Under the pieces are notes generated by a model, which searched no databases, was not told the origin of the DNA, and worked only from the letters and a program-made list of their open reading frames with translations. A stretch of 42,146 bases of DNA from Terriglobia bacterium (GTDB taxonomy: Bacteria; Acidobacteriota; Terriglobia; Acidiferrales; UBA7541): contig JAIQGD010000026.1 in assembly GCA_020072765.1 (NCBI GenBank), forward strand, positions 1 through 42,146, in the 5' to 3' direction. A program made the translations under genes and the position numbers. Of the stretch, positions 2,676 through 17,960 are shown piece by piece; within the stretch, counting starts at the first letter, position 1, and each line of letters opens with the position of its first letter.

Positions 2676-4594
2676 AGGCCGACTCTTTGCTCCGGGATGC
2701 GCACCAGTCCGTTGTCGGTGCCGATATAGATGTATCCATTGCTCGCGGCCAGCGCCGTCACGTTCGATGACGGCAGCCCCGCCTCCACCACCGACCATCG
2801 CGCCGACTGCCGGTCGTACACATACAAACCCTTGCCCAGCGTTCCGGCGAACACATGGCTGGGCGTCACCAGCATGGCATTGGGGTTCACGTCGAACGGG
2901 CCCGAGGCTTTTTCGAAAGAATGGAACCGGCCGGAACCATCCAGGCCCACCACACCCGCTCCATACGTTCCCACCATCCATTCCGAGCCCACGGGGACGA
3001 CCGCGGTGATCCAGTTGTGCTTCAAATTGGAAGTGGCGGTGGTGAAATTCTCCTTGATGCCGCCCTTGTCGAGAACCGACAACCCGCCGAGCGTGCCGGC
3101 GATCAGTTGGTCCCCGGAAACTCCCAGCGCGTAGACGTGATTATTTACCAGGCCGTGAAAGGCGTACATGCTGCGCGCGCCCGTCGCGTCGAGAAACGTC
3201 AGCCCCGCGGGAGTGGCCAGAGCGAGTCCGCCCAGGTAGGGCGCCACGTCGGTGACGTGATCGGTAATCAGGCCGTCGGCGCGCGTGAGCACCTGCTGTT
3301 CGCCGCCCTGGCTATCGAAGCGGACCAGGCCGTTGGCGGTGGCCACGTCGATCGCGCCGTTCTTGGAGTCCGACAGAATCCGATTCACGCAGAAGACGTG
3401 CTCGTCTTCCACGTGGGTAGCGCGCGCATGATCGGAAGAGAGCACATCGAGGCCGTGGTCGAAGTAACCGACCCAGAGGCGGCCATCCGCGCCGGCGGCC
3501 AGCGCGGAAATGTTGCGGTCGCTGAGCACCGCCGCGCCGGGTTGCAGCGCGGGTTGCCAGCCCAATGCGTGAGCGTTCCTGCGGTACACGCCGGTGCGAG
3601 CGACGGCGAAGACCGCGTCGCCGGCGGGAAAAATCTGGCGGATTTCGGATAGCTGCGAGCCCGGACCTGCGCTCGGGTTGGGATGGCGGCCTTCCAGCGG
3701 AATCGTCATCACTCCCTGATCCTCGGAGCCGACGTACAACTCCTGCCGCGTGGCGAACAGGGCCGTCGCCAGCACTCCGGGAGCCAGAGTCCGCGAAAAG
3801 CGCCCGCGGTCAAAGATGGCGACGCCCAGAGGAGTGCCCACGTACGTGCTGTCTCCGGCGATGGCCAGCGACAACACCTGCGAATCCGGGAGCCCCTGCG
3901 CCTCGGAAAAGGAATCCGCCGCGCCCGCGTGGAAGTGAATCACGCCACGGTCCAGCGTGCCCACCCACAAATCCGACTCGTTGCCCGCCAGTGCGGTCAC
4001 GTACGGGACTTTCAACGTCGCATGCAGAAGCTGAATCGTTTTTCCGTCGTAGACCAGGACGCCGCGCTTCTTCGTGGCCATCAGAAGATGGCCCGAGGGC
4101 ACGGGCAAAATGGCGGTGATGGAGCGCGCCTCGGCGTCCTGGGGAAGGATCTGGCGCAACGTGCGGCCATTGAATGCCAGCAAGCCATCCTCGGCGGTGG
4201 CCAGAATGAGTTCGGGCTCACTGGAATCCGCCAGCACGGATGTGGCGATGGCGACTAAAGGCGAGCCGGGAAGTTCTCGCCCGACCGCATACTGATGGAG
4301 CAGGGCGCCCTCATGGTCATAGGCGAGGAGTCCCGCGGGGCCGGCAATATAGAGGGCGCCTTGAAATTGGGCGGCTTGAAAAAAGACCTCCGGGGCGCTG
4401 ATGCCCTCGAAGTCGGGATTGCCGGACATCGCCAGCGGCCGGACTTCGAAAGCGATCTCGCGCTCCGCGCGGACCTCTTCGTTCGCCGAATGCAAAGCCT
4501 GGGACGTGCGCCAAAAGAACAACCCGCCCAGCGCAGCGAGCAGCAGGCCAGCCACGCCCGCGGCGCTGCACCACACCACCGATGTCCGCTTCAT
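2672..4594 (-). CDS. Membrane-anchored beta-propeller (two-component-regulator-propeller-like) protein
   Basis: This 640-residue protein has one N-terminal membrane segment (about residues 8-30). The rest is built of repeats of the kind DLWVGTLDRGVIHF, LYVGSEDQGVMTI, RLWVGYFDHGLDVL and YIYIGTDNGLVRI. These are blades of the seven-bladed propeller found in the sensor part of hybrid two-component regulators (Reg_prop family). No kinase or DNA-binding domain follows, so this is a stand-alone propeller, probably in the periplasm. The start is supported by AGAGGGA seven bases upstream of the ATG. Its stop overlaps the start of the VIT-VWA gene by four bases, and the TPR-like gene follows, so the three are likely co-expressed as a cell-envelope unit. 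Function is not known. Confidence 0.8.
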   Translation of the reverse strand: MKRTSVVWCSAAGVAGLLLAALGGLFFWRTSQALHSANEEVRAEREIAFEVRPLAMSGNPDFEGISAPEVFFQAAQFQGALYIAGPAGLLAYDHEGALLHQYAVGRELPGSPLVAIATSVLADSSEPELILATAEDGLLAFNGRTLRQILPQDAEARSITAILPVPSGHLLMATKKRGVLVYDGKTIQLLHATLKVPYVTALAGNESDLWVGTLDRGVIHFHAGAADSFSEAQGLPDSQVLSLAIAGDSTYVGTPLGVAIFDRGRFSRTLAPGVLATALFATRQELYVGSEDQGVMTIPLEGRHPNPSAGPGSQLSEIRQIFPAGDAVFAVARTGVYRRNAHALGWQPALQPGAAVLSDRNISALAAGADGRLWVGYFDHGLDVLSSDHARATHVEDEHVFCVNRILSDSKNGAIDVATANGLVRFDSQGGEQQVLTRADGLITDHVTDVAPYLGGLALATPAGLTFLDATGARSMYAFHGLVNNHVYALGVSGDQLIAGTLGGLSVLDKGGIKENFTTATSNLKHNWITAVVPVGSEWMVGTYGAGVVGLDGSGRFHSFEKASGPFDVNPNAMLVTPSHVFAGTLGKGLYVYDRQSARWSVVEAGLPSSNVTALAASNGYIYIGTDNGLVRIPEQRVGL

Positions 4595-12219: not shown

Positions 12220-13008
12220 CTAGGGTTTCACCACCGCGCGCAGGTAGGCGAGCACCGACTTCAGCTCGGCATCATCATAAGCGCCCATCACCGACGAGTG
12301 CTTCCACGCGCTGCCTTCAGCGAACGCCACCGTGCCCGGCTCCGCCGTCCGCCGAACCGGCGGCGGAATCGTCAGATCATAGAACATCACCGACCGGCTT
12401 CCCTTGCTGACCACCAGCGCCGGCATGCTCTCGCCCGCGATCTTGGCCGTGGCGACCTCCGGAGTCGCCAGCGCGCGCAGCGCCCGAACATCCGCGGGAA
12501 CCTTGGCCATCGGCGTGGCCACCGCGATCCCGATTCCCTTCACTTCGTGACACGTCGAACATCTTCCGAAGCCGCGCACGGAATCCGAGAACAGGTCCCG
12601 GCCTCGCACGGCTTCCGGTGACAACGCCGGTCCAGCCACTTTGCCGGCCGCCGGATTATCGCCTGCGGAACCCGCCGTCATCTCGGCGCTGGCAAGCCCG
12701 TTCAAATTGGCGACATAGGCCACCACCGCCGCGAGTTCCTGCGGGGAGAGCGTCTTTTCAAACGCGGGCATCGGCGTGCCCACCACGCCCTGGCTCACCG
12801 TGTTGGCAATGAATTCCTGCTCGAACCCGCGCGCCGCAAGCCGGGGCGCTCCTCCGGTGGTGCCCCTCGATCCGTGGCAGTATCCGGTGGCGCAGCGGCG
12901 GTTGAACACCTGTTCGCCCTGCTTCACCACATCCGGCGTGTTTTGCGACCACGCCACAGCCGGGCAAGCCAGCGCGGAAATAACGAGCAACAGCCAAGGG
13001 CGTGTCAT
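12220..13008 (-). CDS. Exported di-haem cytochrome c, partner of the PQQ dehydrogenase
   Basis: A 262-residue protein with a signal peptide (MTRPWLLLVISALACPAVAW). There are two haem-binding sites. The first is non-canonical, C39-ATGY-C44-H45 (CX4CH), with a likely axial Met80 in GTPMPAF. The second is canonical, C150-STC-H154. Translation starts at an ATG that overlaps the stop of the PQQ dehydrogenase as ATGA, with GGAGGG upstream. This fits a periplasmic electron acceptor that takes electrons from the quinoprotein and passes them to a terminal oxidase or another cytochrome. The partner role is inferred from position; the haem sites are read directly. Confidence 0.88.
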   Translation of the reverse strand: MTRPWLLLVISALACPAVAWSQNTPDVVKQGEQVFNRRCATGYCHGSRGTTGGAPRLAARGFEQEFIANTVSQGVVGTPMPAFEKTLSPQELAAVVAYVANLNGLASAEMTAGSAGDNPAAGKVAGPALSPEAVRGRDLFSDSVRGFGRCSTCHEVKGIGIAVATPMAKVPADVRALRALATPEVATAKIAGESMPALVVSKGSRSVMFYDLTIPPPVRRTAEPGTVAFAEGSAWKHSSVMGAYDDAELKSVLAYLRAVVKP

Positions 13009-14690
13009 CGCGATCCCTCCGGCAATGCAAATACCACCATCGTCGAGCCGGGGCGCCAGGATTGGTCGGAAAACAGCCCCGCCATGAACGCTCCGACCAT
13101 CGATGCCTGCCACCCCGTCGGCGTGGCGATGTACTGCCGCCCGTTCACGGCGTAGGAAACCGCCGACCCGCGATGTCCCGCGCCGGTCTGATACCTCCAC
13201 AGCTTCTCGCCGGTGCGCGCATCGAGCGCGAAGAAGTCGCCCTCGGGATCGCCCGTGAATATAAGGTCTCCCGCGGTCGCCAGCACGGACGCCATCAAAA
13301 TGTACTTGTACGGGAAGCTCCAGATGCGTTTCCCGGTCACAGGATCCCAGGCATCCAGATGACTGTAGGTGGTGCGGCCGGGCGGCAGTTTGAGATCGAC
13401 GGGGGAGTTCATCGCGAAGGCGCCCTCCTCCGGCCCCTGGTTGTTGGGAGTAACGGCGGCACAGATTTCGAGGACGGGCGCGTAGATGAATCCCGTGCGC
13501 GGCGAGTACGCGATCTGGTTCCAGCTCTTGGCGCCCGCCGCGCTGGGGCAAAGCGTGCTGGTGATCCCGACGTCCGGGTGCCGGGGCCCCACGATCTCGC
13601 CGTTCATGTCGATTCCGGAGATCCAGGTCTGCTCTTCCGCCAAGGAGAACGCGCCGAGATATTCTCCGGTCTCGCGGTCCAGCACGAAGGTGATGCCGCT
13701 CTTGTTCACGTGCACCAGAATCTTGCGCCGGCGTCCTCCGATTTCGCGATCCATCAGCAAAACCTCATAGGCGGAATCGAAGTCCATGAAGTCGCCGTGC
13801 AGCTCCTGATAATGCCAGCGCATCTTGCCGGTGTCCGGGTCCAGGGCCACCAGGCTATCGGTGTAGAGATTCACGTCCTTGCCATGGCTGGCGGGGATGC
13901 GATCGGCATCGTAATAATCGGGGCTGGGATTGCCCGTCCCCCAATACAACAAATTCAGTTGCGGGTCGAAGGAGCCGGTGGTCCACGGCGAACCCCCTCC
14001 GAACTTCCAACTGTCCCCTTTCCAAGTTTCATGCCCCGGTTCACCCGGCCCGGGAACCACGTACCAGCGCCACGCCAGCCGCCCCGTTTCGGCGTAAAAC
14101 GACGTGAGGTACCCGCGATGGGCCACGTCGGAACCATTTCCGCCGACGATCACCTTGTCCTTCACGACCAGCGGCGCGGAAAAAATAGTGCAGCCGCACT
14201 GCTTGGGGTCATCGACGCTGACCTTCCACAGTTCGCGCCCCGTTTTCTGATCGAGCGCGACGAGGTAGGTGTCGTTCGTACCGAAGAACACCTTGCCGTT
14301 TCCCACGGCCACGCCGCGATTCTGCACCACCGTCGCAAATCCGCGCGGCCGCACCGGCGGGGGCATGGAATAGGCGTAGCGCCAGATCAGGCGTCCCGTG
14401 GCGGCGTCGAGCGCGAACACGTTGTCGCGCGCGGTGATGACGTACATCACGCCGTCAATGACAATGGGCGTGGCCTGCAGGTTGTCGGCGTAATCCCCGG
14501 TCTGAAAGATCCACGCCGGCGCGAGATTTCTTACGTTGGCCGTGTTGATCTGATCGAGCGCGGTGTAGCGCCACGCCAGCGGCGTCCCGCCAAAACTCGG
14601 CCAGTCCGCGCGCGTCGCGCCTTCCTGGGCCTGTGCGGACACCACGGCGAACAGTACCACCACCGCAACTTTCATCGTGCGCAGTATCAT
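13005..14690 (-). CDS. PQQ-dependent (quinoprotein) alcohol dehydrogenase, periplasmic
   Basis: A 561-residue exported quinoprotein with a signal peptide ending near AQAQ. The eight-bladed propeller is marked by tryptophan-docking motifs: DAATGRLIWRY, DQKTGRELWKV, YAETGRLAWRW, DPDTGKMRWHY, DPVTGKRIWSF and DARTGEKLWRY. The enzyme is expected to oxidise an alcohol or aldehyde in the periplasm and reduce the neighbouring cytochrome c. Most relatives carry adjacent cysteines before the NRGVAV strand that form a vicinal disulfide over PQQ; this one reads GFATVVQNRGVAV, so that pair is absent, while a CGC sits about 50 residues later. The start at 14690 has GAGG six bases upstream. Substrate and metal (Ca or lanthanide) cannot be told with confidence. 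It leads a seven-gene run ending with the MBL gene. Confidence 0.9.
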   Translation of the reverse strand: MILRTMKVAVVVLFAVVSAQAQEGATRADWPSFGGTPLAWRYTALDQINTANVRNLAPAWIFQTGDYADNLQATPIVIDGVMYVITARDNVFALDAATGRLIWRYAYSMPPPVRPRGFATVVQNRGVAVGNGKVFFGTNDTYLVALDQKTGRELWKVSVDDPKQCGCTIFSAPLVVKDKVIVGGNGSDVAHRGYLTSFYAETGRLAWRWYVVPGPGEPGHETWKGDSWKFGGGSPWTTGSFDPQLNLLYWGTGNPSPDYYDADRIPASHGKDVNLYTDSLVALDPDTGKMRWHYQELHGDFMDFDSAYEVLLMDREIGGRRRKILVHVNKSGITFVLDRETGEYLGAFSLAEEQTWISGIDMNGEIVGPRHPDVGITSTLCPSAAGAKSWNQIAYSPRTGFIYAPVLEICAAVTPNNQGPEEGAFAMNSPVDLKLPPGRTTYSHLDAWDPVTGKRIWSFPYKYILMASVLATAGDLIFTGDPEGDFFALDARTGEKLWRYQTGAGHRGSAVSYAVNGRQYIATPTGWQASMVGAFMAGLFSDQSWRPGSTMVVFALPEGSR

Positions 14691-14892
14691 GGAATGCCTC
14701 TTCGAGAAACGCGCCCTCCGCAGCCGCGGCGCTGAATCCCGGGAGAATTCTGCCATATTCAGCCACGAGAACCGCCCAAAAGATTCGCGCCCTCCGCTGT
14801 GCCCGACAGTCGAATGCAGACGCGGCCCACACTTCGGCGCGCGCGGCTGATTCCCCGTGCGGCCCGACTCCCGGCGAAGGCCCCAAAACCTC

Positions 14893-14929
14893 TTGACGGA
14901 TGTTCCGCTCCTCCCCTATAAAGGATGAG
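14893..14929 (+). promoter_or_regulatory. Sigma-70-type promoter of the riboswitch-TonB receptor transcript
   Basis: TTGACG (14893-14898) and TATAAA (14917-14922) are separated by 18 bases. The expected start of transcription, about 14929, coincides with the first base of the P1 helix of the first cobalamin riboswitch, which supports both calls. Confidence 0.75.
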
Positions 14930-15073
14930 CTTGGTGTTGTTGGGAAGCCGGTGAGACTCCGGCACGGCCCACGCCACTGTAAGCGCAGAGAGACGGAACG
15001 CAACAGGCCACTGGGAGCGATCCTGGGAAGGCCGTTCCGGTCAACACCGCGCGAGTCAGGAGACCGACCAAGC
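14929..15073 (+). ncRNA. Cobalamin riboswitch, first of a tandem pair
   Basis: The segment holds the conserved cobalamin-aptamer core GGGAAGCCGGTGAGACTCCG, then CGGCCCACGCCACTGTAAGCG, and the 3' B12 box GAGTCAGGAGACCGACC. The outer P1 helix can be drawn exactly: GCTTGGT (14929-14935) pairs with ACCAAGC (15067-15073). A possible hairpin follows, ATCGACT (15088-15094) with AGTCGAT (15105-15111). No clear gene starts directly after it; the next recognisable element is a second cobalamin aptamer 252 bases downstream. Confidence 0.9.
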
Positions 15074-15325
15074 ACCCACATACGCAGATCGACTTCGATG
15101 GGAGAGTCGATAAAGCTTCGGCGCCAGTGGTTCTTGCAACTCGCAGTGAAGAAGAATTGTCTCGAAGTCCATCCCAGCAAGACCCTGGCCGTTTTGGCGA
15201 GGCGTAATCAGACATCCAGCATGTGGGGGCTCGGCGGAACGCGCAGCGGCATCTCGCGTTGTGCGGAGCCGCCCCCGATGGAGCTGGCGTTATAGAGGTA
15301 GAACACAACAAAGCAGTCGCAATCC
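15074..15325 (+). other. Spacer between the two riboswitches, with a doubtful 65-codon ORF
   Basis: An open frame runs from ATG at 15098 to TAG at 15293-15295. It has no ribosome site, its start lies in the loop of the hairpin 15088-15111, and its product resembles no family I know. It could be a regulated leader peptide or the remains of a lost B12-controlled gene, but simple non-coding spacer is more likely. I see no promoter for the second riboswitch in this stretch and no hairpin followed by a T-run. Confidence 0.3.
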
Positions 15326-15480
15326 GCTGGCCGGACAAACGGGAAGCGCGGTGAAATTCCGCCACTGCCCCGCAACTGTAAGCGACAGCAAGAGGTCTGC
15401 GATACGCCACTGCCCCTCCGGGCGGGAAGGCACAGACACCATGCCGGACGTCGCGAGTCAGGAGACCGAGTCGGGCCAGC
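15326..15480 (+). ncRNA. Cobalamin riboswitch, second of a tandem pair
   Basis: The core GGGAAGCGCGGTGAAATTCC, then GCCACTGCCCCGCAACTGTA followed by AGCG, and the B12 box GCGAGTCAGGAGACCGAGTC match the cobalamin aptamer closely. P1 pairs GCTGGCC (15326-15332) with GGCCAGC (15474-15480). Thirty-eight bases separate it from the ATG of the TonB receptor. A hairpin in that space covers the receptor's ribosome site, so this aptamer most likely controls translation. Confidence 0.95.
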
Positions 15481-15493
15481 TAATCTGAACACG

Positions 15494-15521
15494 CTCTTCC
15501 GAGGGCGAAGAGGACACCATG
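15494..15521 (+). promoter_or_regulatory. Expression platform: hairpin covering the ribosome site of the TonB receptor gene
   Basis: CTCTTC (15494-15499) can pair with GAAGAG (15507-15512). The 3' arm contains most of the Shine-Dalgarno AAGAGG (15508-15513), five bases before the ATG at 15519. There is no T-run, which points to translational rather than transcriptional control by the aptamer just upstream. Confidence 0.55.
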
Positions 15522-17960
15522 AAGACACCGAAGCCGTGGCAGTGCATCTTTCGTCTGATATTGCTGTTCGTTCTGATTTCCTTTTCCCGGCCGGCCAGTG
15601 CGGCACCCCAAGGTATCTTGCGCGGCCGCGTCATTGATCCCCTGGGCGCCGTGGTTCCCGGAGCCAAAGTCGCACTCCTTGAAAATAGTAAAGAGATCGC
15701 GCACACGCAAGCCGGACCGGAAGGTGCGTTCGAGTTTGCAGGGTTGAACGCCGGGCGCTACAGCGTCCGCGTCCAGGCGTCCGGATTTGAAAACGAGGAG
15801 AGCGCGCCGGCGTTCGTGCCGGGCGAAGGGACCGCGCAACTCGACGTGATCGTGCGCCTGGGGTCGTTACGCCAACAAATGGTGGTTTCCTCCACCGGGA
15901 CCGCCATGCCCGAGTCGCAAGTGGGGGCTTCGGTCAGCGTCGTGGACCAGCGGCAACTGGACGACGCCAATCATCAGGATGTTTCCGACGAGCTTCGAAC
16001 CGTGCCGGGCGCGCAAGTGGTGCGCGGCGGGCGGATGGGCAGCGTGACCAGCCTGTTCATTCGCGGCGGAGAATCGAACTTCAACAAAGTTCTCATCGAC
16101 GGCATCCCCGCCAACGACATCGGCGGTTACATGAATCTGGGAACCGTTGCCGCGGCCGGCGTGGACGAAGCCGAAATCCTGCGCGGGCCCAATAGCGCGC
16201 TCTACGGCTCCGACGGACTGGCCAGCGTGATCAATCTCACCACGCGCCGTGGCACGACGGGCACCCCGGAAATTACCTACGCCGCCGACGGAGGGAATTT
16301 CAGCACGATGCGGCACGACGGGTCCATCGGCGGCGCGTACCACGCCTTCGATTACTTTTCGGAGTTCGCCCGGTTCGACACGCGCAATGGGATTCCCAAC
16401 AACAGCTTTCACAACGGCACGTATGCCGGGAATCTCGGCTGGGCGGCGAACGCCACGACCGAGCTGCGTCTTACGGTGCGGCACAGCGCCGCCAAGTCCG
16501 GCGACCCCAATGCCACGGCGTTCTACGGCATACCGGACGATTCGTGGGAGCAGGCGCGCGACACATACGTGGGCGTCACGGCGCAGAATCAAACGACGCC
16601 TCGCTGGCACAATCTGGCGCGCTTTGCCTATGCCGATCAGCACTACAGCCTGACCAACCCGTCACCGACAGGCACGCTCGATCTATTCGGCGACTATGTG
16701 GGCAACACCGTGACGATCTGCGGGGCGAACGGCTACTGCACGACGGGCAGCGCAATCCTCGACTGCGGGCTGGCCTACTGCGCGTACCCTTCCACCTACC
16801 AAACCAGTGCGATGCGCCGTTCGATCTACGCACAGTCCGATTATCAGGCGCGTCCGGACCTGGGCGTCACCGGCGGGTTTCGCTACGAGCATGAGAACGG
16901 CTCGGGAGAAACGCGGGATAACTTCAGCGGCATTCTGGAAGGGCGCGGGAGCCTCAAGCGGCGACTCTACGTGACGGCTGGCGTGGGACTGGACCAGAAT
17001 GCGGTGTTCGGGTTTGCGGCCACGCCTCGCGTGTCGCTCGCTTACTACCTGCGGCGGCCATCCACGGACGGCTTTTTCAGCGATACGAAGTTGAAGTTCA
17101 ATTTCGCGACGGGCATCAAGGAACCGAACACCTATCAGCAAGCCTCGTCGCTTTACCAAGTGCTGCTTCAAAGCCCCGGCGGCCCGGCGCTGATCTCGCA
17201 ATACGGAATCTCTCCCGTCGGGGCCGAGCGAAGCCGCAGCTTCGATTTCGGCGCCGAGCAGGGCTTCTGGAATAATCGCGCCCGGCTGGGCGTCACCTTG
17301 TTCCATGCGCGCTATTACGATTTGATCGAATACGTAGGCCACGACGCGCTTCCGCTGCTGGGGGTGCCGCCTAGTGTCGCGCTGGCCGCCGGTTGGGGCG
17401 CCTACATCAATTCCGATTCACACCGGGCGTTCGGGGCCGAGCTCGAAGTGAAAGCCAACATCGGGCACGGTCTCTTCGTGCGCGGCAATTACACCTACCT
17501 CGACGCCGTGGTGACGCGCTCGTTCACCAGCGATGCGCTGGGGCCATCGTACAACCCGGCGTTCCCGACGATTCCCATCGGAGTGTATAGCCCGCTGGTG
17601 GGTGCCAGGCCCTTCAACCGCGCCCCGCATTCCGGCAGCCTGGTGGTGGATTACGCGCGGAGAAAATTCGGCGTGGCGCTCTCCGGCTCCTTCGTCGGAC
17701 GCCGCGACGGCAGCACATACCTGACGGATGCGTTCTATTGGACGACCATGCTCCTGCCCAACCGAAATCTCCAGGCGGGCTATCAGGTGGTCGATCTGAG
17801 CGGGCGCTACATCGTCAATGCCCACGTGACGACTTATGTTAGCGTCTCCAACCTGTTCAGCCAGCACTACCAGGCGGAAATCGGCTATCCGTCGCTTCCT
17901 CTGGCGTTCCGCGCGGGAATGAAGTTCACCTTCGGCGGCGAAAGTGGCTGGTGGAAATAG
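15519..17960 (+). CDS. TonB-dependent outer-membrane receptor, probably for cobalamin (BtuB-like role)
   Basis: An 813-residue outer-membrane receptor. A signal peptide (about residues 1-28) is followed by a carboxypeptidase-regulatory-like beta-sandwich (about 32-110: GRVIDPLGAVVPGAKVAL to AGRYSVRVQASGF), then a TonB-box-like stretch (RQQMVVSS). The plug domain comes next (RTVPGAQVV, SLFIRGGESNFNKVLIDGIP, EILRGPNSALYGSDGLASVINL). The rest is the 22-stranded barrel, ending in an aromatic-rich strand (FRAGMKFTF). The N-terminal extension is common in Acidobacteriota receptors. Assignment to cobalamin or a related corrinoid rests on the two B12 riboswitches in the leader, not on barrel residues. 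The ABC-type inner-membrane transporter is not in the window. Convergent to the operon ending at 18033. Confidence 0.9.
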   Translation: MKTPKPWQCIFRLILLFVLISFSRPASAAPQGILRGRVIDPLGAVVPGAKVALLENSKEIAHTQAGPEGAFEFAGLNAGRYSVRVQASGFENEESAPAFVPGEGTAQLDVIVRLGSLRQQMVVSSTGTAMPESQVGASVSVVDQRQLDDANHQDVSDELRTVPGAQVVRGGRMGSVTSLFIRGGESNFNKVLIDGIPANDIGGYMNLGTVAAAGVDEAEILRGPNSALYGSDGLASVINLTTRRGTTGTPEITYAADGGNFSTMRHDGSIGGAYHAFDYFSEFARFDTRNGIPNNSFHNGTYAGNLGWAANATTELRLTVRHSAAKSGDPNATAFYGIPDDSWEQARDTYVGVTAQNQTTPRWHNLARFAYADQHYSLTNPSPTGTLDLFGDYVGNTVTICGANGYCTTGSAILDCGLAYCAYPSTYQTSAMRRSIYAQSDYQARPDLGVTGGFRYEHENGSGETRDNFSGILEGRGSLKRRLYVTAGVGLDQNAVFGFAATPRVSLAYYLRRPSTDGFFSDTKLKFNFATGIKEPNTYQQASSLYQVLLQSPGGPALISQYGISPVGAERSRSFDFGAEQGFWNNRARLGVTLFHARYYDLIEYVGHDALPLLGVPPSVALAAGWGAYINSDSHRAFGAELEVKANIGHGLFVRGNYTYLDAVVTRSFTSDALGPSYNPAFPTIPIGVYSPLVGARPFNRAPHSGSLVVDYARRKFGVALSGSFVGRRDGSTYLTDAFYWTTMLLPNRNLQAGYQVVDLSGRYIVNAHVTTYVSVSNLFSQHYQAEIGYPSLPLAFRAGMKFTFGGESGWWK

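Follow-up and report, generated by a model that had tools for sequence, protein, structure and literature searches.

Tandem riboswitches have usually been discussed by their possible function, such as steeper or logic control, and less by their origin. Tandem THI elements in Desulfovibrio were described as the first example of possible tandem riboswitches (PMC545781), and contiguous riboswitches have been surveyed in a study whose main text contains neither "acidobacteri" nor "btub" (PMC12452182). Tandem AdoCbl riboswitches are a known, rare kind: less than 1% of TPP- or AdoCbl-riboswitch leaders were reported to carry several aptamers (PMC2258182), and 26 AdoCbl doublets were counted among the "pseudo-cooperative" pairs (PMC9481103). 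In the open-licence literature, judged by titles and the first part of abstracts, no work on tandem cobalamin riboswitches in Acidobacteriota or on an origin of tandems by gene loss was found.

Here, two cobalamin riboswitches with no gene between them (a tandem; T1 and T2 denote its first and second aptamer) were analyzed in the leader of a receptor gene from a Terriglobia bacterium; the window is the whole stretch of 42,146 nt under study (contig JAIQGD010000026.1). Like the pseudo-cooperative AdoCbl tandems (PMC9481103, PMC2258182), the locus has two cobalamin-class switches in series before one gene, but the pair appears to derive from loss of intervening genes, and in the window T1 is followed by neither a terminator nor a gene start belonging to it. 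The arrangement is also similar to the translational cobalamin riboswitch of Escherichia coli btuB (PMC10653944), as T2 precedes a BtuB-like receptor gene and has a hairpin over the ribosome site, whereas T2 was apparently operon-internal without its own promoter and is now located behind a second switch. With bi-mechanism tandems such as SAM-II/SAM-V (PMC9481103) it shares the possibility that a single mRNA is controlled at different levels by two switches, although one aptamer class is repeated in the window and transcription-level action of T1 is hypothetical. Taken as a whole, we consider it likely from comparative sequence analysis that this is a collapsed corrinoid operon in which T2 would serve as an OFF switch on translation and T1 would add a second OFF step. 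An earlier note on this DNA had described the aptamers, the leader, the promoter, the hairpin and the missing target of T1, which stand, while the probable origin from a cob-salvage/receptor operon was missed. The sharper or two-input control that the note associated with tandem aptamers would be hypothetical for this locus, as would a common ligand of both switches.

Materials and Methods

Aptamers were accepted with RF00174 (gathering score 31.5). A scan with four receptor sequences gave 19 loci, and after a Prevotella match (27% identity) was dropped, 18 Acidobacteriota loci were retained, two of which (L080 and L081) belong to one genome. A class-wide search covered 399 genomes, of which 79 had a receptor match at 1e-150, and yielded 46 leaders; 40 were scanned, some from genomes already counted, so that the survey is not exhaustive. 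CobU (PF02283) and CobS (PF02654) were sought in 49 genome entries, at most 48 of them distinct because G118 and G135 give identical coordinates. A promoter-like match had to agree in 8 or more of 12 letters and to lie next to the start of the aptamer. The aptamer tree contained 69 aptamers, and the test of T1-type hairpins left out five of 31 leaders, which lacked the motif or box. Conservation was compared in three pairs of tandem genomes, namely G114/G237 (receptors 94.6% identical), G304/G369 (one genus) and G105/G154 (one genus), under the assumption that each pair inherited its tandem from a common ancestor; all three are outside the window's own lineage.

Two Cobalamin Aptamers in One Leader

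The Rfam scan of the window returned two full-length cobalamin matches and one tRNA. The covariance search thus accepts both aptamers over the full model and above the gathering score, as the earlier note had proposed (Table 1), and two riboswitches with complete aptamers are present in series upstream of one ORF. They are separated by a spacer of 191 nt, and one hairpin is located behind each aptamer. The claim that the P1 helices can be drawn base by base applies better to T1, with P1 at 14929-14935/15067-15073 as read from the letters, than to T2, whose P1 is imperfect with several non-standard pairs marked in the Rfam alignment. The folding energy of the leader and platform stretches is ordinary compared to shuffles (z -0.5 to -1.7). 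Both aptamers would be expected to bind corrinoid. A third cobalamin switch of this genome (contig C110) precedes genes for a periplasmic binding protein, a FecCD permease and an ABC ATPase, i.e., BtuFCD-like genes.

Table 1. Features of the tandem leader and receptor gene in the window.
Feature	Position	Strand	Basis
Promoter TTGACG-18-TATAAA; inferred RNA start ~14929	14893..14922	+	Sequence; cross-genome comparison
Aptamer T1, putative former cob-operon (cobU) switch	14915..15086	+	RF00174 98.8 bits, E 1.2e-23; tree grouping with cob-operon switches
T1 platform hairpin (P13-like), 7 pairs around loop UCGAUGGGAG	15088..15111	+	Present in cob-operon leaders; predicted in whole-leader fold
Spacer, probably left by loss of cob genes	15112..15302	+	In relatives, occupied by cobU and further genes
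Probable cobU remnant, reads LGGTRSGISRCA	15230..15265	+	CobU N-terminal profile, 10.3 bits
Aptamer T2, receptor switch	15303..15489	+	RF00174 85.2 bits, E 9.7e-20; tree grouping with receptor switches
T2 platform hairpin CTCTTC(CGAGGGC)GAAGAG with ribosome site, GAGGA at 15510-15514	15494..15514	+	Sequence; pattern recurs in T2 and receptor leaders
BtuB-like TonB-dependent receptor, 813 aa	15519..17960	+	Pfam barrel, plug and CarboxypepD_reg domains

Receptor Loci of Relatives and Absence of cob Genes

Among the 18 loci, two switches with no gene between them were present in four (L077, L085, L089, L090), two switches with cob genes between them in five (L075, L078, L080, L084, L087), and a single switch in nine, counted in the examined stretch before the receptor; several of these nine loci are near a contig end. 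The genes between the switches of L034/L078 are cobU, cobT and those for a fused CobS/nitroreductase-family protein and a CobQ/CobB-like protein, and G008 has cobU alone at this place. With the tandems added by the class-wide search (G327, G258, G304, G369), nine distinct tandem genomes are at hand: G000 (window), G105, G154, G114, G237, G327, G258, G304 and G369. Locus and relatives form a series of several cob genes between the switches, cobU alone, no gene, and single survivors of either switch, which makes it testable whether a switch without its gene keeps working on the next gene. Single switches without cobU and cobS were seen in G112 (L082), which keeps one of receptor type, and in G190 (L127) and G337 (L147). 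At L080, two divergent cobalamin switches (4028-4224, minus strand; 4368-4553, plus strand) lie 143 nt apart, the plus-strand one preceding cobU, and the tandem spacer of G105 (L040, 4152-4419, minus strand) holds a palindromic element of about 100 nt with inverted ends, as read by eye.

CobU was above the cut-off in 24 entries representing 23 distinct genomes. In 20 of these 23, cobU is on the contig of the receptor, up to about 10 kb upstream of it, and in G226, G166 and G163 it is on another contig. Eighteen of the 20 have a switch over threshold before cobU and another before the receptor, the exceptions at the threshold used being G325 without the first and G225 without the second. CobU and CobS were found in none of the nine tandem genomes, and CobT, sought in 11 genomes, was absent from all five tandem genomes among them. 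The searches thus show that cobU, cobS and cobT are absent from the window genome as assembled, and the lack of an intact target gene for T1, borne out here, is accounted for by the loss of cobU. Since the window genome keeps a CobA/BtuR adenosyltransferase and several B12-binding-domain proteins, it probably uses imported corrinoids. The loss of corrinoid salvage is in this way tied to a readable mark in the receptor leader.

As the window genome is a draft (152 contigs, 96.6% complete), the cob genes could be located in its missing part. That an assembly artefact deleted them from this locus, which the draft state would allow, is nevertheless hardly credible, since eight other genomes have the same arrangement, G258 being assembled in 7 contigs with 99% completeness, and a decayed cobU piece as described below would not arise by misassembly.

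Ancestry of the Two Aptamers

In the aptamer tree, T1 of the window groups with nine cob-operon switches, two other T1 and one single switch (100/97), and its T2 groups with the receptor switches of G059, G060 and G061 (95/80). G105 and G154 show the same split, with T1 on the cob-operon side and T2 on the receptor side. In G327, the partner of T1 is the cobU switch of G008 (97/90) and that of T2 is the receptor switch of G008 (97/96), and for G258, T2 is among the receptor switches (99/92) and T1 beside the cobU switch of G321. T2 of G114, G237, G304 and G369 are likewise among receptor switches (90/98). The T1 of these four genomes share an unresolved fork (98/91) with receptor switches, T2 and two cob-operon switches. 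Overall, the tree does not separate cob-operon from receptor switches into two clean clades (8 and 7 changes). An earlier tree of 37 rows had assigned T1 as well as T2 of L089 and L090 to the cob-operon switches; this placement was discarded, as the denser tree moves their T2 to the receptor switches.

These trees bear on the possibility that one aptamer was duplicated locally, which would serve cooperative or sharper control and would explain why both aptamers of one leader belong to the same Rfam family. A sister relationship of T1 and T2 of the same genome was rejected by the AU test in all seven genomes tested of the nine (p-AU 6e-6 for the window; 2e-19 to 0.021 overall). Since T1 and T2 moreover group with different switches, local duplication is ruled out under the model used and has in our view next to no probability. 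The tree comparisons show the separate ancestry of the two aptamers under this model, and we are highly confident that the tandem pair originated by operon collapse. Mapped on a quick tree of 35 receptors, the tandem state requires five changes, and the collapse thus seems to be recurrent.

The ancestral layout would have been one transcript with promoter, switch U, cobU, often further cob genes, switch R and receptor. A deletion would have removed cobU except for a short piece near its start, together with everything up to switch R, leaving promoter, T1, T2 and receptor.

The Spacer and the Probable cobU Remnant

The spacer between the window aptamers resembles the DNA behind 20 cob-operon switches (mean z 2.4), and much less so the DNA before 20 receptor switches (0.2) or the other eight tandem spacers (-0.5); its resemblance to the leaders of G059-G061, the closest relatives with cob genes, is not clear (z 0.5 to 0.7). 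Within the spacer, 15230-15265 translates in frame as LGGTRSGISRCA, where CobU relatives have the Walker A motif LGGxRSGKSxxA, the Walker A lysine being absent. The score of the spacer with a profile of 22 CobU N-termini (Table 1) was reached by one of 2000 dinucleotide-shuffled spacers, and the other eight tandem spacers reached at most 0.7 bits. The pairwise score of the spacer was reached by 0 to 31 out of 500 shuffles, depending on which of five CobU proteins it was compared with (31 for CobU of G060), and a Pfam search of the cobU-like stretch gave no match. The offset of the stretch from the B12 box is 167 nt, within the range of 160-232 nt for intact CobU in 19 leaders and outside the main cluster of 173-194 nt formed by 17 of them. 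The stretch is probably what remains of a cobU broken off just after the Walker A region, up to the second switch. A strong hairpin (15215-15282; -37 kcal/mol, z -1.7) without a U run behind it was observed over the cobU-like stretch.

A frame of 65 aa (15098-15295) is open here and begins inside the T1 hairpin, and T1 might in principle control a short protein encoded between the aptamers. This is very improbable, as the frame has no Pfam match, its sole recognizable stretch looks like a CobU remnant without the Walker A lysine, and the other eight tandem spacers are not similar to it.

Promoter and Transcript

The predicted promoter (hexamers at 14893-14898 and 14917-14922) overlaps the start of the T1 match, and the RNA would start at the first base of T1 P1, so that the leader would measure about 590 nt. 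No promoter was listed for 14700-15620 by a strict consensus scan, which demands T at position 6 of the second hexamer. Support for the site proposed in the earlier note comes from the relatives: promoter-like matches were found beside nine of nine tandem T1 and 20 of 22 cob-operon switches, and beside only one of nine tandem T2 and three of 20 receptor switches. It is this comparison that gives the position of the promoter. The aptamer match of the receptor switch begins at or beside the stop codon of the preceding gene in several relatives. Because promoter-like matches are rare beside receptor switches and T2, the receptor switch looks operon-internal.

A separate start between the aptamers, which would have spoken against the earlier reading, was looked for in the form of a promoter, and none was found there. 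Two transcription units, T1 heading a separate RNA and T2 having its own promoter, could be argued from the strict scan, in which the T1 promoter is missing as well, and from a TTGAC-like element in the G105 spacer. In view of the contrast between T1 and T2 in promoter-like sites, we regard this arrangement as improbable, and both aptamers would lie on a single transcript.

Predicted Receptor Control by T2

The score of the receptor with the B12 receptor model TIGR01779 is 118.6 bits, far under the cut-off and no better than its match to a heme receptor model. Because of this weak match, the receptor is called BtuB-like mainly on account of the switches and the gene context. In one relative (L119, G172), a CobA/BtuR adenosyltransferase gene is located directly upstream of the receptor, and no cobalamin switch was over threshold in the scanned stretch. 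In the window, a gene for a PQQ-dependent dehydrogenase-like protein (13005-14756, minus strand) also gave a match to 'acido-empty-quinoprotein' below the cut-off.

The hairpin behind T2 is formed by 15494-15512 around the loop CGAGGGC, and the ribosome site is on its 3' side, 4 nt before the ATG at 15519. The hairpin over the receptor's ribosome site reported in the earlier note is thus present, and its CGAGG loop is seen again in T2 leaders and in the majority of receptor leaders. In cobalamin riboswitches, a downstream hairpin loop, L13, pairs with the aptamer loop L5 (PMC10653944). By sequence, the L5 region contains GCCC in T2 and CCCA in T1, and the respective hairpin loops contain GGGC and UGGG; both hairpins are taken here as putative P13 hairpins. 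T2 very probably gates receptor translation, and most likely it is corrinoid-bound T2 that would block translation via the hairpin over the ribosome site. An insertion of 116 nt was seen in T2 of G304 (L149, 1812-2101) and is absent from its relative G369.

Conservation and Possible Output of T1

The hairpin common to T1 and cob-operon switches has about 7 pairs and the near-constant loop UCGAUGGGAG. In 24 distinct T1-type hairpins 91.7% of the pairs form, a value reached by none of 1000 shuffles; extra pair types (reached by 263 of 1000) and two-sided changes (562 of 1000) were not above shuffles. T1, which would open the transcript and has kept both its aptamer and its platform hairpin intact, would most likely add a second OFF step on the receptor mRNA. 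Both the OFF direction and the output of T1 are inferred.

In the three tandem pairs (G114/G237, G304/G369 and G105/G154, in this order), T1 is identical at 171/179, 152/169 and 130/175 positions and the hairpin region behind it at 53/53, 43/53 and 29/53, compared to 84/114, 80/123 and 106/229 for the rest of the spacer. The corresponding values are 175/182, 148/159 (116-nt insertion left out) and 123/156 for T2 and 355/422, 170/360 and 114/311 for 4-fold sites of the receptor. Despite the absence of cobU and cobS, the conservation of T1 comes close to that of T2 and clearly exceeds that of spacer and 4-fold sites; this implies that T1 is probably not a mere relic in the three pairs. Compensatory changes in T1 between the members of the pairs were few: seven pairs changed over the three comparisons, none on both sides and two with the pairing broken.

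No start codon was found at the expected place behind the T1 hairpin of the window, which reads ATA, and a simple scan found no intrinsic terminator on the plus strand of the spacer behind T1, the only terminator-like site of the window region being on the minus strand. The same scan gave candidates in three of nine tandem spacers and one of 22 cob leaders. A leader peptide gated by GGGAG of the T1-type hairpin was considered and rejected, as an ATG is present 5 nt behind it in only six leaders, i.e., the cob-operon leaders of G137, G247 (twice), G226 and G117 and the tandem leader of G327.

T1 in the window genome might be a dead relic of a recent collapse, with only T2 controlling the receptor. 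No start codon, gene or intrinsic terminator follows T1, and since the cobU piece is probably still readable, the loss of the operon may be recent. T1 is intact, however, with 98.8 bits, and in the three related tandem pairs the identity of their T1 is far above that of the rest of the spacer. We regard the relic as rather unlikely and lean toward T1 being still active on the receptor mRNA. Tentatively, and with somewhat less than even confidence, we propose that selection has retained the stranded promoter-proximal switch as an additional control on the receptor mRNA. It would act from a distance via its hairpin, without an intrinsic terminator or a start codon, and such action may involve Rho-dependent termination or mRNA stability, among others. 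If this is true, operon collapse is one way in which tandem riboswitches are born, taken up to five times here, and a riboswitch can outlive its own gene and be re-used.

The 5' arm of the T1 hairpin can pair alternatively with 12 nt of the window spacer (z 3.8), and in such pairing tandems exceeded cob leaders when counted by genomes (p 0.034) but not when counted by lineages (p 0.24). In G190 and G337, which have no cobU and a single switch with a cob-type hairpin, the start codon of a long frame is located 5-7 nt behind GGGAG, so that the hairpin could gate translation directly. At the G337 locus (L147, 1716-1774, plus strand), a match to SECIS_3, a selenocysteine insertion element family, was observed just over the gathering score.
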